A stretch of DNA of 64,000 nucleotides from positions 1 through 64,000 of the forward strand of contig NZ_VAWB01000001.1 in assembly GCF_006148925.1 (NCBI RefSeq), given 5' to 3'. Below are positions 10,419-16,841 of the stretch, piece after piece; positions within the stretch are counted from its first letter, which is position 1, and every line of letters starts with the position of its first letter. The notes under the pieces are model-generated. The model was not told where the DNA came from and ran no database searches. It was given only the letters and a program-made list of their open reading frames with translations. The translations under genes and the position numbers were made by a program. Origin of the DNA: Hyunsoonleella aestuarii (GTDB lineage: Bacteria; Bacteroidota; Bacteroidia; Flavobacteriales; Flavobacteriaceae).

Positions 10419-10453
10419 AAAAAGGCTGTCAAATATAAATTGACAGCCTTTTA
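10419..10453 (-). terminator. Intrinsic terminator of the lipoprotein operon
   Basis: Stem AAAAAGGCTGTCAA / TTGACAGCCTTTT around a short A/T loop, with a U-run on the minus strand. It lies 63 bases beyond the end of the 155-aa lipoprotein gene, between it and ffh. A second 9-bp inverted repeat (AAAAGGAAA at 10453 and TTTCCTTTT at 10488) sits just in front of it. Confidence 0.8.
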
Positions 10454-10515: not shown

Positions 10516-10983
10516 TTATAATTTCTCAAAGGTTAGATAATCTGTACCTCCATTACCCCCGCTAATATCAATAAGCTCAATTTTATTTGAAGAATACAAG
10601 ATAATATCCCAATCGTCGCTTAATTCTTGGAAATTAGATGGAGCCGAAAAAGTTATATTAAAATCAATGTCATCACTACTATCATCGTTACTATTACTAT
10701 CCGTAACAGACCAATCACCCTCTATAGTTACAGAGCTATTTATGGCAATTAGTTTTCCATCACTATTAAATGTAAAACTATACCCGCTAAAATTACTCGT
10801 CTCCTCTTTGTCTGTATCAAAAAAATACGTTAATGACCATGAACCTGATGTAACTGTATTTTTAATATTTTGAATTTCCAAAGAATTATCCGATTGATTC
10901 GTACTGTCATCTGACGAGCAACTAAGCGATAGTAACATTAGAAATGAAACTAATAATAAGCTGAATTTAATATTCTTTTTCAT
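10516..10983 (-). CDS. Lipoprotein, single lipocalin-like domain
   Basis: 155 aa with a lipoprotein signal ending LSLSC (Cys22), followed by SSDDS, an acidic stretch compatible with surface export. The mature part is one beta-rich domain of about 110 residues with the pattern SGSWSLTYFFD ... FTFNSDGKL ... IEGDWSV ... IELIDISGGNGGTDYL. This closely resembles the last domain of the neighbouring 587-aa lipoprotein (IELLDISGGDGSQDIL), so the two genes appear related by duplication. It is 24 bp downstream of that gene and almost certainly in one operon with it. Ligand unknown. Confidence 0.8.
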   Translation of the reverse strand: MKKNIKFSLLLVSFLMLLSLSCSSDDSTNQSDNSLEIQNIKNTVTSGSWSLTYFFDTDKEETSNFSGYSFTFNSDGKLIAINSSVTIEGDWSVTDSNSNDDSSDDIDFNITFSAPSNFQELSDDWDIILYSSNKIELIDISGGNGGTDYLTFEKL

Positions 10984-11007: not shown

Positions 11008-12771
11008 CTATGTTTTTTTCTCAAGCACTAATATATCTTGAGAACCATCTCCTCCGCTAATATCTAGAAGTTCTATTCGTGTTTCTGTAATTTCAACGAT
11101 TTTCCATCTATCATTAAACTCATCAAATGGAACTTCAAGTCCAAAATTAAGTGCTAATTTCAAGTATCCATCATCTCTCAAAACTAACCATGAACCATCA
11201 ATAATTCCATTATTTGGATCGGTTACCTTTATCCATCCATTCTCGAGAAAACTAATGGCATACATGAAAAACTCGTCAGTTTTATCAACATTATCCTCTT
11301 TATAAAGTGCTACTTCCCATTCTCCACTTATAAGTACGTTCCCAACATAGTTTAGATCCTCATCACCATCAGGGCAATGTCTTTTCAATACCATTTTATT
11401 ATCTCTATTTCCTAAAGACTCTAATTTAATTAAACCAGGTTCTAAGAATGTAACAAACCATTCTAACTGTAAATTAGGTCTGCCTTCTAAGTTAATTTGC
11501 AATACAAAACCAGCAGTATTATAGGCTAATATATCATAAGTACCTGCTATAAACTCACCATTTACGCGAATCTTAACTACGTTATTTTCAAAGAATTTTA
11601 ATGGTGTACCTATATAGTCTTTTTCATTATCATTTTCATTAACAGTTAAACGTGTAACTCTCCAAAAACACTCTTTTAAATAATTTTCAATTCTCTCTTT
11701 TGTAATATCAACAATATCACAGTTTTTCTTCAAGATAATTTTATTACCACCTTCCTGGTATAATTTAATTTTACCGGGTTCAAGGTCGTATACAAACCAC
11801 TCTAATGTGAAGTCAACTAGAGTTTCAAATTCCAATTTAATTAAAGCTCCTCTATCAGTAACTCTTGTTGTCCAAGTTCCAGTAAGTATATCTCCATTTC
11901 TTTTACGAACTTTCACTACGTTATCTTCTTGGAAAGTCATTACATACTCTACATAAACTTCTCTAAGATTATCTTGATTTCTTTCGAACTCATATACAAC
12001 CCAAGGACAAGATTTCAATAAATTATCTAAACGCTCTTTTGTGAAATCGTCGTCTCCATAATCGTTATCATCATCTTCGTCGCAAGCGTCTTTTGCCTCT
12101 TCAATTATTCTTTCTAATTGAATATTGTCTGCAGCAGTTAATTCTGTACCATCAGCTAAAATCATAGTTACTGGAAAGTTAAGACTAGCTAAAACTTCTG
12201 CATCTATAACACGTTTTATGAAACCGTGTAATTCTCTATCGTTTTCAACAGTAATAACATCAATAACCTGGAAGTTAGGATTATAAACAGTAAACGAAAT
12301 TGGGAATTTAAAATCGATACATTCTATATCGTCATCTTCTTCGTTTTCTCCTCTACACTTGGAAACAAATTCTTCCAATTCTGCTGCACTGTTAATTGAG
12401 ATTTCATCATGATCTTCGTTTGTAATTACTATAGGAAATAAAATATCCAAACGATCTTCATCATCTTCAAACTCATTATATATAGCCTCGATTGTTTTAT
12501 AGTCTTCTTCAGAATCTATAATAATCTCAAGACCATTAACCACAACAGTTACTGGTAAGTTTACAGATAAGCAGTTTGCTTTATCTATAATATTGTCTTT
12601 AGAACCGTCAAATTTAGCAGTAGCACTTACGATTGCTGTTAAGTTGGAGTCTGCAACAAGTGCTTCTGCTTCATTTGGTTCTGTAATTTCTGTTACCTCG
12701 TCTTGACACGACGTAAACATTAAAAGGGCGAAAAAAGGTAAAATAAGTAGGGTTTTCATTAAAGATTTCAT
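11008..12771 (-). CDS. Acidic multi-repeat lipoprotein
   Basis: 587 aa from the ATG at 12771. That ATG gives a proper signal (MKSLMKTLLILPFF..., lipobox FTSC, Cys22); the upstream ATG at 12795 would add 8 residues. After CQDE the protein is very rich in Asp/Glu. I see two repeat families. Four short units of about 35 residues carry the pattern (L/F)P(V/I) + beta strand + Glu/Asp-rich helix (about 67-100, 109-139, 153-189, 196-230). Three lipocalin-like units of about 110 residues follow (243-351, 356-466, 478-586), each with an initial W, a VVK(V/I)R-type strand and a LEWFV...LEPG(K/L)IKL stretch in the first two. Function unknown; surface ligand binding is an inference. It is divergent from the FecI-type sigma gene and preceded by a shared GGGTAGGAA element. 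Confidence 0.85.
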   Translation of the reverse strand: MKSLMKTLLILPFFALLMFTSCQDEVTEITEPNEAEALVADSNLTAIVSATAKFDGSKDNIIDKANCLSVNLPVTVVVNGLEIIIDSEEDYKTIEAIYNEFEDDEDRLDILFPIVITNEDHDEISINSAAELEEFVSKCRGENEEDDDIECIDFKFPISFTVYNPNFQVIDVITVENDRELHGFIKRVIDAEVLASLNFPVTMILADGTELTAADNIQLERIIEEAKDACDEDDDNDYGDDDFTKERLDNLLKSCPWVVYEFERNQDNLREVYVEYVMTFQEDNVVKVRKRNGDILTGTWTTRVTDRGALIKLEFETLVDFTLEWFVYDLEPGKIKLYQEGGNKIILKKNCDIVDITKERIENYLKECFWRVTRLTVNENDNEKDYIGTPLKFFENNVVKIRVNGEFIAGTYDILAYNTAGFVLQINLEGRPNLQLEWFVTFLEPGLIKLESLGNRDNKMVLKRHCPDGDEDLNYVGNVLISGEWEVALYKEDNVDKTDEFFMYAISFLENGWIKVTDPNNGIIDGSWLVLRDDGYLKLALNFGLEVPFDEFNDRWKIVEITETRIELLDISGGDGSQDILVLEKKT

Positions 12772-12810
12772 AATAATTGAATTTGGGTTAAACATAGCTT
12801 TTATTGATAA

Positions 12811-12838
12811 AACATGATAACTTCAAAAATTCCTACCC
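12811..12838 (-). promoter_or_regulatory. Candidate FecI-type sigma promoter for the lipoprotein operon
   Basis: The minus strand reads GGGTAGGAA (12838-12830), 14 bases, then ATGTT (12815-12811). The same layout occurs on the plus strand in front of fecR (13571-13598). The distance to the lipoprotein ATG is 39 bases from the end of the element. Shared sequence and spacing on both sides of the sigma gene suggest it is the sigma factor's target. Confidence 0.6.
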
Positions 12839-12919
12839 CTCTTCTTAAAAAAAAATCAAAAAAATTAAAATTCTGAGTTTCAAAAAACCTTATTTTAGTG
12901 GCTCCAACTACCACTAACT

Positions 12920-13435
12920 ATGAGTAAACAACTGCATGATAATATTTGTGAGGAACATTTGTTTTCGTCTATTTTTAATAAATATTCCAAAGACCTAAAT
13001 AACTTCCTATATTATAAGTTTGGTGATCTCTTAAATCCTAAAGATAAAGTACAAGAAGCTTTTATTAAACTTTGGCAGAATTGTGCTAAAATTTCTCCAG
13101 ATAAGGCCAAGAGTTTTGTGTTTACTACTGCAAATAATTTAATGTTAAATGAAGTAGCTCACCAAAAAGTGGTTTTAAAACACCAACAAACAAAACCCAA
13201 AATGCATACTAATGAGAGTCCTGAATTTTTAATGCAGGAAAATGAGTATATGGAAAAATTACAAAACGCACTTGCTAATTTAACCAAACCCCAACGTGAA
13301 GCGTTTTTAATGAACAGAGTAGAAGGTAAACGTTTTAAAGAAATAGCTGAGATTTTAGATATCTCCACTAAAGCTGTTGAAAAACGAATTTATGGAGCCC
13401 TAAAAAAATTGAGATTAGAAATTAAAGAGCTGTAG
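12920..13435 (+). CDS. FecI-type ECF RNA polymerase sigma factor
   Basis: 171 aa. Region 2 spans about residues 20-85 (FNKYSKDLNNFLYYKFGD ... KVQEAFIKLWQN). Region 4 covers about 112-165, with the helix-turn-helix KRFKEIAEILDISTKAVEKRIYGALKKL. The pairing with a downstream FecR anti-sigma factor and an STN-domain TonB receptor places it in cell-surface signalling. A TATTTTAG sequence just upstream could be its own promoter, but the GGGTAGGAA element seen before its neighbours is absent. Its 3' end is followed within 4 bases by a heptamer repeat tract. Confidence 0.93.
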   Translation: MSKQLHDNICEEHLFSSIFNKYSKDLNNFLYYKFGDLLNPKDKVQEAFIKLWQNCAKISPDKAKSFVFTTANNLMLNEVAHQKVVLKHQQTKPKMHTNESPEFLMQENEYMEKLQNALANLTKPQREAFLMNRVEGKRFKEIAEILDISTKAVEKRIYGALKKLRLEIKEL

Positions 13436-13439
13436 CTTG

Positions 13440-13509
13440 TTGTTGGTTGTTGGTTGTTGGTTATTTGTTGTTTGTTGTTTGTTGTTTGTTGTTTGTTGTT
13501 TGTTGTTTA
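13440..13509 (+). repeat. Tandem heptamer repeat (10 units)
   Basis: Three TTGTTGG, one TTATTTG, five TTGTTTG and one TTGTTTA in perfect 7-base register. The tract starts 4 bases after the sigma gene stop codon and ends 61 bases before the candidate fecR promoter. It is a simple-sequence repeat of the kind that varies in length by slipped-strand mispairing. It is non-coding here. Confidence 0.95.
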
Positions 13510-13570
13510 GTAACTACATTTTTATACAGAATACTAAAATTTAAGTTTTTGAAATAAAAATTAATTACTA

Positions 13571-13598
13571 GGGTAGGAAAAAATAAAAGTAACTTGTT
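13571..13598 (+). promoter_or_regulatory. Candidate FecI-type sigma promoter for fecR-tonB
   Basis: GGGTAGGAA (13571-13579), 14 bases, then TTGTT (13594-13598), 17 bases before the fecR start. It matches the element on the opposite strand at 12838-12811 in both halves and in spacing. Confidence 0.6.
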
Positions 13599-13615
13599 AT
13601 ATAGTTGAATACGAA

Positions 13616-14527
13616 ATGATGAATAGAGAAACTTTAATATCGAAATGGTTAGATAACAATCTAAATGATCAAGAGCTTCAAGCCTTTAAAAACCTTGAAG
13701 ATTATGATGATTTAGTTAAGTTAAATGACTCTTTACAAGCTTTTAAGGTTGATGAATACAACACTAAACAAGAACTTGAAAGTGTTTTATCTGCAATTAA
13801 AAATCCTGCTATTCAACCTAATAAAAACGGAAATAACTGGTTAAAACCATTTATGCGTATTGCAGCGATACTTGCTGTTTGCTTTAGTTTATACTATTAT
13901 ACAACTACATTAGACACAACCATTTCGACAGAATTTGCTCAAAAAACGACTATAGAATTACCCGATGCCTCAAGTGTATCACTTAATGCAAAATCTACTT
14001 TAGCTTTTAATAAAAAAGATTGGAAACAAGAACGCGAAGTAGAGCTTAATGGTGAAGCATTTTTTAAAGTTGCCAAAGGGTCATCGTTTAAAGTTAATAC
14101 AAAATCAGGAACCGTAACGGTTTATGGTACTCAATTTAATGTAAAACAACGGGACTATTATTTTGAGGTTATTTGCTACGAAGGTTTAGTTGGGGTTACC
14201 CATAATTCTCATGAAACGAAATTAAAACCTGGCGACAGTTTTTTAATTATAGATGGGAAAATTATTGCTAAAGAAAAAGAAAACCGCTCAACACCTTCGT
14301 GGTTAAATAACGAAAGCCAGTTTAAAAGTATGCCGTTTAAAACGGTAATTGCAGAATTTGAAAGACAATATCACGTAGACTTTTCACTAATAAATGTGGA
14401 TAGCACCCAATTATTTACAGGTAGTTTTGCTCACGACAACCTAGAAATGGCATTAAAAAACATTACATTACCTTTACAATTAACTTATACCAAAGAAAAT
14501 AATACTATAATCTTAAAGCGTGAGTAG
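13616..14527 (+). CDS. FecR family anti-sigma factor
   Basis: 303 aa inner-membrane regulator. The N-terminal cytoplasmic segment (1-75, sigma-binding) is followed by a membrane segment (about 79-96) and the periplasmic FecR domain (about 103-200, ELPDASSVSLNAKSTL ... GEAFFKVA ... VYGTQFNV). The C-terminal DUF4974/STN-interacting domain is at about 235-303. By family it holds the adjacent sigma factor until the outer-membrane transducer signals ligand. Either Met1 or Met2 can be the start. It overlaps the TonB receptor gene by 8 bases, so the two are cotranslated. Confidence 0.93.
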   Translation: MMNRETLISKWLDNNLNDQELQAFKNLEDYDDLVKLNDSLQAFKVDEYNTKQELESVLSAIKNPAIQPNKNGNNWLKPFMRIAAILAVCFSLYYYTTTLDTTISTEFAQKTTIELPDASSVSLNAKSTLAFNKKDWKQEREVELNGEAFFKVAKGSSFKVNTKSGTVTVYGTQFNVKQRDYYFEVICYEGLVGVTHNSHETKLKPGDSFLIIDGKIIAKEKENRSTPSWLNNESQFKSMPFKTVIAEFERQYHVDFSLINVDSTQLFTGSFAHDNLEMALKNITLPLQLTYTKENNTIILKRE

Positions 14528-16841
14528 TAAAGGACTCCATTATCTTTTTTATTTCTTATTTTTTTTGAACTTTACCTACCTAAATGCTCAAGACGTTCAA
14601 AAAGAAAAGCAAGACCTTGCTTCAATTTTAACTGTTTTAGAGGATTTATACGAAGTCCGATTTTCCTATGCTGATGAAGTAGTTAAAACTATTAAACTAA
14701 AGCTTCCTGAAAGGGATTTAACACTTACGGATATCTTAAATTTTATAAGTGCTGAGACAAATTTAAACTTCCAATTACTCGATAATCGTTTTATTGTTAT
14801 TACAGAGAAGAATTCCGATTCTACAAATAATGATTTTGACACGCAACGTTTAGAAGAAGTCGTTGTTGTAAATTATTTAACTACTGGTCTTAATCAGCTA
14901 AACGATGGTACCACAAGAATAAAGCCTGAAACCTTTGGAATACTTCCAGGTTTGATAGAACCTGATGTTTTACAAACCATTCAAGCACTACCTGGAATAT
15001 TAAGTATAGATGAAACGGTGTCTAACATTAATGTTCGTGGTGGTACACATGATCAAAACTTAATTTTGTGGGATGGCATAAAAATGTATCAATCTGGGCA
15101 CTTCTTCGGACTTATTTCAGCCTTCAACCCTTATACAACCACATCGGTTAACGTTTCTAAAAATGGAACCAGTGCAAAATATGGAGAAGGGTTATCAAGC
15201 GTTATAGATATGCGTCTGTCTAATACCATCGGCAATGAATTCAAAGCTGGTGGCGGATTCAACTTGATAAACGGAGATGTTTATGCTAAAATACCAACTT
15301 CAAAAAATACCGAAATTCAGCTTTCTGCAAGACGGTCGTTAACCGATTTGATACTTACACCAACTTACGATCAATATTTTAAACGAGTTTTTGAAGATTC
15401 CGATTTTAATCAAAAAAGTGAAACAACCATTACTAATAATGAGAAGTTCTCTTTTTATGATTTCACAGTGAAATTCCTTTATGATATTACATCAAAAGAC
15501 AGACTGCAACTCAACTTTTTAAGCGTTAATAACAGTCTTGATTATGAAGAACGTTCAACGATTAACGACCGAAGTGAAGCTCTTAACAGCAGTCTTCTAC
15601 AAGAAAACCTAGCAACTGGACTTACATATATTAGGGATTGGAGTGATAAACTACAAACTACAGTATTATTGTATTTATCTAATTATGATTTAGACGCTAC
15701 AAATTTCGACATTATTAATGACCAGCGCTTAATTCAAGAAAATGAAGTCTATGATGGTTCTTTGCGCTTAGATATCAATTATAGTTTGAATCAAAATCTT
15801 AAAATAAATACTGGGTATCAATTCACCGAAGTTGGTATTAGCAATTTAGAAGATGTTAATAATCCTGAATTTAGAAGCTATATAAAAGAAGTAGTGAGAA
15901 GCAATTCCGGATATGTAGAAAGTGATTTTTTATCTAATAATGGTAATACAAGATTAAAACTAGGAACCCGGATAAACTACTTTGATAAGTTCAATAAAAT
16001 ACTAGTCGAACCAAGACTTAGTTTTAGTCAACGTTTTTTAAATAATTTTAGATTTGAAGTACTTGGTGAATTTAAAAGTCAAACCACATCACAAATCATC
16101 GATTTGCAAAACGATTTCTTAGGTATAGAAAAGCGAAGATGGGTTTTATCCAACGACTCCAATGTCCCTGTTTTAAAAAGCAAACAAGCTTCGGTTGGGC
16201 TACATTACAATAAAAATAAATTTCTGTTAAGCGCAGAAGGATACATTAAAAAAGTAGATGGTATTACGAGTAGAAGTCAGGGTTTTCAAAATCAATTTCA
16301 ATTTGTAAACGATATCGGAAGTTATGAGATTAAAGGTGTTGATGTTTTAATAAATAAACAATTTCAAAACTTATTTAGCACTTGGCTAAGTTATTCTTTT
16401 AGTAAAAATGATTACACATTTAATAATTTAAACAGTGGTATTTCATTTCCTAATAATGCAAACATTACTCATGCTATAAGTTTTGGAGGCGTATATACGC
16501 AAAACAAATTAAAGCTCGCCATTGGGTTTAATTGGCATTCTGGAAGACCTTTTACAGATTATATTGATGTAAATGATTCGGCCGCCGCCAGAGAAATTAA
16601 TTACGAATCACCAAATAGTAGTAATTTGGGCGATTATATGAGAGCCGATTGCTCTGCAACTTATGCGTTTAATATTAGTGATGGCCTTCAAGCTCATCTT
16701 GGTGCTTCAGTTTGGAATGTCTTAGATAAAAAGAATGTCATCAATATTTACCATACGCTAGATGACGACAACAATATAAATACCATTGAAAACCAATCAC
16801 TTGGTATTACTCCCAACCTAAGTTTTAGAATTGATTTTTAG
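14520..16841 (+). CDS. STN-domain TonB-dependent outer-membrane transducer
   Basis: 773 aa with a GTG start at 14520 inside the end of fecR. A signal peptide (1-23, ending YLNAQ) is followed by an STN signalling domain (about 31-97: ILTVLEDLYEVRFSYADEVV ... LNFQLLDNRFIVI). The plug domain (about 133-232) carries NVRGGTHDQNLILWDG and ends YGEGLSSVIDMR. The C-terminal beta-barrel ends in aromatic-rich strands and a final Phe (LSFRIDF). It takes up a ligand with TonB energy and signals through FecR to the sigma factor. It is shorter than SusC-type receptors and has no partner SusD. The substrate is unknown. Confidence 0.92.
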   Translation: MSSKGLHYLFYFLFFLNFTYLNAQDVQKEKQDLASILTVLEDLYEVRFSYADEVVKTIKLKLPERDLTLTDILNFISAETNLNFQLLDNRFIVITEKNSDSTNNDFDTQRLEEVVVVNYLTTGLNQLNDGTTRIKPETFGILPGLIEPDVLQTIQALPGILSIDETVSNINVRGGTHDQNLILWDGIKMYQSGHFFGLISAFNPYTTTSVNVSKNGTSAKYGEGLSSVIDMRLSNTIGNEFKAGGGFNLINGDVYAKIPTSKNTEIQLSARRSLTDLILTPTYDQYFKRVFEDSDFNQKSETTITNNEKFSFYDFTVKFLYDITSKDRLQLNFLSVNNSLDYEERSTINDRSEALNSSLLQENLATGLTYIRDWSDKLQTTVLLYLSNYDLDATNFDIINDQRLIQENEVYDGSLRLDINYSLNQNLKINTGYQFTEVGISNLEDVNNPEFRSYIKEVVRSNSGYVESDFLSNNGNTRLKLGTRINYFDKFNKILVEPRLSFSQRFLNNFRFEVLGEFKSQTTSQIIDLQNDFLGIEKRRWVLSNDSNVPVLKSKQASVGLHYNKNKFLLSAEGYIKKVDGITSRSQGFQNQFQFVNDIGSYEIKGVDVLINKQFQNLFSTWLSYSFSKNDYTFNNLNSGISFPNNANITHAISFGGVYTQNKLKLAIGFNWHSGRPFTDYIDVNDSAAAREINYESPNSSNLGDYMRADCSATYAFNISDGLQAHLGASVWNVLDKKNVINIYHTLDDDNNINTIENQSLGITPNLSFRIDF

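Follow-up and report, generated by a model that had tools for sequence, protein, structure and literature searches.

Two matching promoter-like elements point outward from a FecI-type sigma factor gene in Hyunsoonleella aestuarii

A gene for a FecI-type ECF sigma factor in the marine bacterium Hyunsoonleella aestuarii lies between two copies of a promoter-like element that face away from it. One copy faces an acidic lipoprotein operon, and the other faces fecR and the gene for a TonB-dependent transducer. Comparisons with related genomes suggest, at a probability of roughly 0.9, that both elements serve as promoters for the sigma factor whose gene they flank. The window analysed here is a stretch of 64,000 nucleotides, and the features that concern us in it are as follows.

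10420..10452, minus strand: terminator-like hairpin that ends the lipoprotein operon ahead of ffh (found by scan; 13 pairs and a T-rich tail)
10516..10983, minus strand: lipoprotein 2, 155 aa (open reading frame)
11008..12771, minus strand: acidic lipoprotein 1 with lipobox ..LLMFTSC (open reading frame 11008-12795)
12807..12838, minus strand: candidate promoter element 1, GGGTAGGAATTTTTGAAGTTATCATGTTTTAT, facing the lipoprotein operon (exact match and ortholog conservation)
12920..13435, plus strand: FecI-type ECF sigma factor, 171 aa, with sigma regions 2 and 4 (Pfam Sigma70_r2 and Sigma70_r4_2 over cut-off)
13571..13602, plus strand: candidate promoter element 2, GGGTAGGAAAAAATAAAAGTAACTTGTTATAT, facing fecR and the TonB transducer (exact match and ortholog conservation)
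13616..14527, plus strand: FecR-type anti-sigma factor, 303 aa (Pfam FecR, PF04773, and FecR_C, PF16344, over cut-off)
14520..16841, plus strand: TonB-dependent transducer, 773 aa, with an N-terminal signalling-type domain and a plug (Pfam Plug and FecR_C)

The sigma locus and its flanking elements

The sigma factor belongs to the ECF group (group 4), whose members have sigma regions 2 and 4 only and about 170-200 aa. It scores 35.9 bits against Sigma70_r2 (cut-off 24) and 58.2 bits against Sigma70_r4_2 (cut-off 25.7), and its only solved-structure match is the ECF sigma factor SigL. Its scores fall below the cut-offs of the NCBIfam FecI equivalog NF041727 (49.5 bits, cut-off 260) and of TIGR02985, the Bacteroidetes family-1 sigma factors (103.8 bits, cut-off 126.4), and the protein is FecI-like by context, not FecI itself. 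That context is of the FecI-FecR-TonB kind. A FecR-type anti-sigma gene adjoins the sigma gene, and residues 99-301 of its product match the solved putative anti-sigma factor 4m0n (E 2e-18). A TonB receptor gene follows in the same operon, overlapping fecR at 14520/14527, and its transducer product is over the Pfam cut-off for both Plug and, at residues 30-93, FecR_C (PF16344). The transducer is found in 79 orthologous loci.

On the other side of the sigma gene, lipoprotein 1 probably starts at the ATG at 12771 rather than at 12795, and homologs occur in 76 of 80 orthologous loci. Its AlphaFold model (mean pLDDT 76.5, pTM 0.46) has three beta-rich repeats in the C-terminal part, which is predicted to form three lipocalin-like barrels. 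In a Foldseek search, individual repeats resemble lipocalin-like Bacteroides proteins (TM by target 0.55-0.58) and, less closely, an Enterococcus DUF4822 protein. Lipoprotein 2 is probably encoded in the same operon. It does not occur as a separate gene in any of the 80 ortholog loci, and a homolog in a further locus has a site of its own.

The first-pass annotation had described the element as GGGTAGGAA-N14-WTGTT, at 12838-12811 on the minus strand and at 13571-13598 on the plus strand, and both copies are found there with 0 mismatches. It had also held that the window has no third copy and that the sigma gene lacks a site of its own. There is indeed no other 0-mismatch match in the window, no plus-strand copy lies upstream of the sigma gene, and the minus-strand copy 82 bases upstream points away from it. 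The whole-genome search that was proposed there finds the exact pattern only at these two sites in 3,144,584 bases.

Ortholog comparison reveals that the element is longer than originally seen, with the form GGGTAGGAA-N15-TGTTNTAT at 12838-12807 and 13571-13602. Element 1 consists of a -35-like GGGTAGGAA, a 15-base spacer and a -10-like TGTTTTAT, and the consensus is a -35-like GGTAGG(A/G)(A/G) and a -10-like TGTTNTAT exactly 15 bases apart. The 3.14-Mb genome contains two exact copies of the longer form, those that flank the sigma gene. A refined degenerate pattern with at most 1 mismatch finds 3 genome sites, versus 0 for the reversed pattern, which is the only whole-genome control. When the spacer is made one base shorter, which acts as a negative control for spacing, nothing rises above control genome-wide. 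Near-matches in the genome with 1-3 mismatches are about as frequent as for the reversed control and are not counted as sites, with the exception of one that precedes a 28-aa peptide.

The intergenic DNA has two other features. About ten 7-base units (TTGTTGT) stand in tandem at window positions 13437-13508, between the sigma stop codon and the predicted fecR promoter. A TATTTTAG stretch at about 12880-12905 resembles the TAnnTTTG box of flavobacterial housekeeping promoters (PMC9723704) and is kept just upstream of the sigma start in many relatives. It is possibly the sigma gene's own promoter.

Conservation and co-occurrence with the sigma gene

Among 84,980 species genomes scanned, 80 loci encode close sigma orthologs (76-95% identical), and nearly all of these come under Flavobacteriaceae-type names (Algibacter, Flaviramulus, Hyunsoonleella, Tamlana, Psychroserpens and others). 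Aligning the intergenic regions of these loci, a check that the first-pass annotation had suggested, places the lipoprotein-side site in 80/80 loci and the fecR-side site in all 79 that reach that far, with a site counted as present at no more than 3 mismatches of 17. The surrounding intergenic DNA has diverged. The identical spacing reported for the two copies also extends to every orthologous locus, where the gap from GGGTAGGAA to TGTT is 15 bases. Mean relative entropy per base reaches 1.8-2.0 for the -35 and 1.5-1.7 for the -10, against 0.16-0.27 for the 40 bases upstream.

It might be supposed that the two copies are alike merely because intergenic DNA was recently duplicated, and that they have no function. 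Within the genome they do agree at all defined bases. However, their flanks and spacers differ, and both copies persist down to 76% sigma identity while the flanks diverge, a pattern of conservation that refutes the duplication and leaves it a negligible chance of being right.

About a hundred relatives share the outward layout of two putative promoters, though its dimensions vary. Across the ortholog loci, the sigma start lies 38 to 227 bases from the lipoprotein-side site and 516 to about 3,200 bases from the fecR-side site. Some relatives have unrelated genes between sigma and fecR, and despite these the fecR-side site remains ahead of fecR, which fits a dependence of fecR on the site. In eight loci the sigma-fecR gap holds differing unrelated reading frames or long sequences. 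This gap looks like an insertion hotspot in the relatives.

When the degenerate pattern is run over 397 genomes of the family, 245 sites appear in 124 genomes, versus 9 sites for the reversed control. The motif is present in 105 of the 115 genomes with a sigma ortholog (E<=1e-70) and in 19 of the 282 without one (Fisher p about 2e-63, with no correction for the relatedness of the genomes, because of which the counts are not independent). Of the ten sigma-bearing genomes that lack a pattern hit, nine retain a diverged but still recognisable site (10-12 of 12 core bases) next to the sigma gene on one side or both, and both sides are weak in the tenth.

Conserved blocks alone cannot separate a promoter from an operator, and the element might instead be a site at which a separate activator or repressor co-regulates both operons while the housekeeping sigma factor transcribes them. 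However, the motif is neither a palindrome nor a repeat, it has promoter spacing and lies just ahead of start codons, and it is without the flavobacterial housekeeping TAnnTTTG box (PMC9723704). The locus shows no sign of another regulator. The co-occurrence of the motif with the sigma gene also argues against an operator, as does the way its variant form tracks the sigma clade inside a single genome, and we consider this explanation quite improbable.

A paralogous sigma factor with its own -35 variant

A second FecR gene, the only other one in the genome, adjoins a sigma gene whose product is 52% identical to the window sigma factor. This second FecI-FecR-transducer locus is on contig 1 at about 1170180-1174200. 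The paralogous sigma gene is likewise flanked by a pair of outward-facing elements, AAGTAGGGT-N15-TGTT, and these are the only two places in the genome with an exact copy of AGTAGGGT-N15-TGTT. Most loci of sibling sigma genes in other genomes carry an outward GTAGGGT pair. The same pair is present in most of several more distant sigma loci with an about 300-aa FecR, and four further loci near the window type have a GTAGGA pair. Since the paralog and its sibling loci carry variant pairs, the layout, spacer and TGTT are common property and the -35 version varies with the sigma clade. Distant FecR-linked sigma loci (22-38% identical, many with a longer FecR) have no GTAGG outward pair. Such a pair is also missing from L274, a closer locus at about 50% identity, and from the sibling loci L267, L269 and L270.

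Several FecI-type sigma factors could use the element, in which case the regulon would be shared and not private. The paralog's elements do share the spacer and the TGTT box, and their -35 is very similar. However, each -35 version is exact only at its own sigma locus in the genome, plus the 28-aa peptide site, which is a variant of the window sigma factor's version, and relatives likewise keep the versions apart. Sharing is accordingly rather unlikely, though less remote than an operator. Recognition of the two elements by their cognate sigma factor, as the first-pass annotation had proposed, is made very likely by the ortholog conservation with its fixed spacer, the co-occurrence across 397 genomes and the paralog's own variant pair.

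Region-4 residues that differ between the two sigma clades include F139/Y, T150/V and I157/M, and these may set promoter specificity. The private -35 variants provide a direct test of which region-4 residues do so, and where they are paired in one genome they are candidate insulated sigma-promoter pairs. It is fairly probable that a general rule holds for a Flavobacteriales subfamily of FecI-type sigma factors. According to this rule, the sigma gene lies between two outward copies of a private promoter, paralogs are separated by 2-3 bases of the -35 (GGTAGGAA versus AGTAGGGT), a conserved 28-aa membrane peptide belongs to the regulons along with exported proteins and lipoproteins, and promoter and regulon can be read from the flanks. 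A sigma factor's own flanks would then give its promoter motif, and thereby its regulon, without experiments.

The predicted regulon and signalling pathway

Both operons carry the site, in agreement with the earlier proposal that they form the regulon, but the regulon is not just these two. A third genome site, on contig 2 at 89765-89734 (minus strand), lies upstream of a 28-codon frame, MKILFLVIALIIINLILLVFSVNKKTDP. The 28-aa peptide is conserved and of the single-span membrane type, and in six other loci it has a site 16-76 bases upstream. The frame is probably a real gene, because most of its base changes are at third codon positions (285, versus 159 and 81) and it recurs in other loci. Longer relatives of the peptide may exist in two further loci. 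Between promoter and peptide there is a leader of the form ACGCAACC-N8-24-GCATC (L218 5687-5714, and five other loci), with five genome copies versus one in the reversed control. The ACGCAACC-GCATCT leader has no match in Rfam.

Bacteroidota have many FecI-FecR-TonB systems, and the kind of signalling is a known one; the promoter code, layout and output are new. In the resting state, FecR would hold the sigma factor at the inner membrane. When a ligand meets the outer-membrane TonB-dependent transducer, the N-terminal domain of the latter would signal to FecR, and the freed sigma factor could bind RNA polymerase and fire both promoters and the third before the 28-aa membrane peptide. Because its gene lacks a site of its own, the sigma factor would not be amplified. 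The inhibitor FecR and the transducer would be, which would create a feedback through fecR. The output would be surface lipoproteins and exported proteins, in a set that varies by species, and the gene content suggests that the lipoproteins are the regulated output of the TonB transducer. This regulon would place unknown lipoproteins and the 28-aa peptide in a signalling pathway.

The E. coli FecI-FecR-FecA system (PMC9249621) likewise combines an ECF sigma factor, a FecR-type membrane anti-sigma factor and a TonB transducer with an N-terminal signalling-type domain, and its sigma gene is not self-controlled either. In that system fecIR is under sigma-70, and the promoter used by FecI is that of fecA (PMC9249621), whereas here fecR and the transducer gene lie behind one promoter of the sigma type and a second faces the lipoprotein operon. 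The predicted outputs here are lipoproteins and exported proteins, not iron transport genes. An ECF-type promoter class has also been inferred within Flavobacteriaceae, as motif SM6 of Flavobacterium psychrophilum, in a paper which states that further ECF-controlled starts may await discovery (PMC9723704). SM6 is marked by a CGT box in its -10 region and belongs to T9SS genes, whereas the present element is built of GGTAGG and TGTTNTAT and serves different targets. The PorY-PorX-SigP system of Porphyromonas gingivalis (PMC4800418) is similar in that a Bacteroidota ECF sigma factor controls cell-surface functions, but SigP is driven by a two-component system and not by FecR and a TonB-dependent transducer. 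No published consensus for this sigma group was found in the open-access library searched.

Sites lie mostly 3-150 bases ahead of start codons, chiefly of exported proteins. We took 60 loci around sites that are mostly unpaired within 2 kb, and judged the next gene and signal peptides by eye. The next gene encodes a lipoprotein or other exported protein in 35 loci and a small-peptide type in 9, is a fecR or lipoprotein-1 homolog at a diverged sigma locus in 7, and is something else in 9. In 9 of the 60 loci the site precedes a gene without an export signal, which counts against this reading of the regulon. Among ten targets that were scanned, Pfam names DUF4382 lipoproteins, a protein with a T9SS C-terminal sorting tail and an OmpA-type protein, and no family reaches the Pfam cut-off in the other seven. 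A recurrent target, present in eight loci, is an exported protein of 146-161 aa. Its gene is about 30 kb from the sigma gene in several genomes, and a gene for a long exported protein follows it in at least two.
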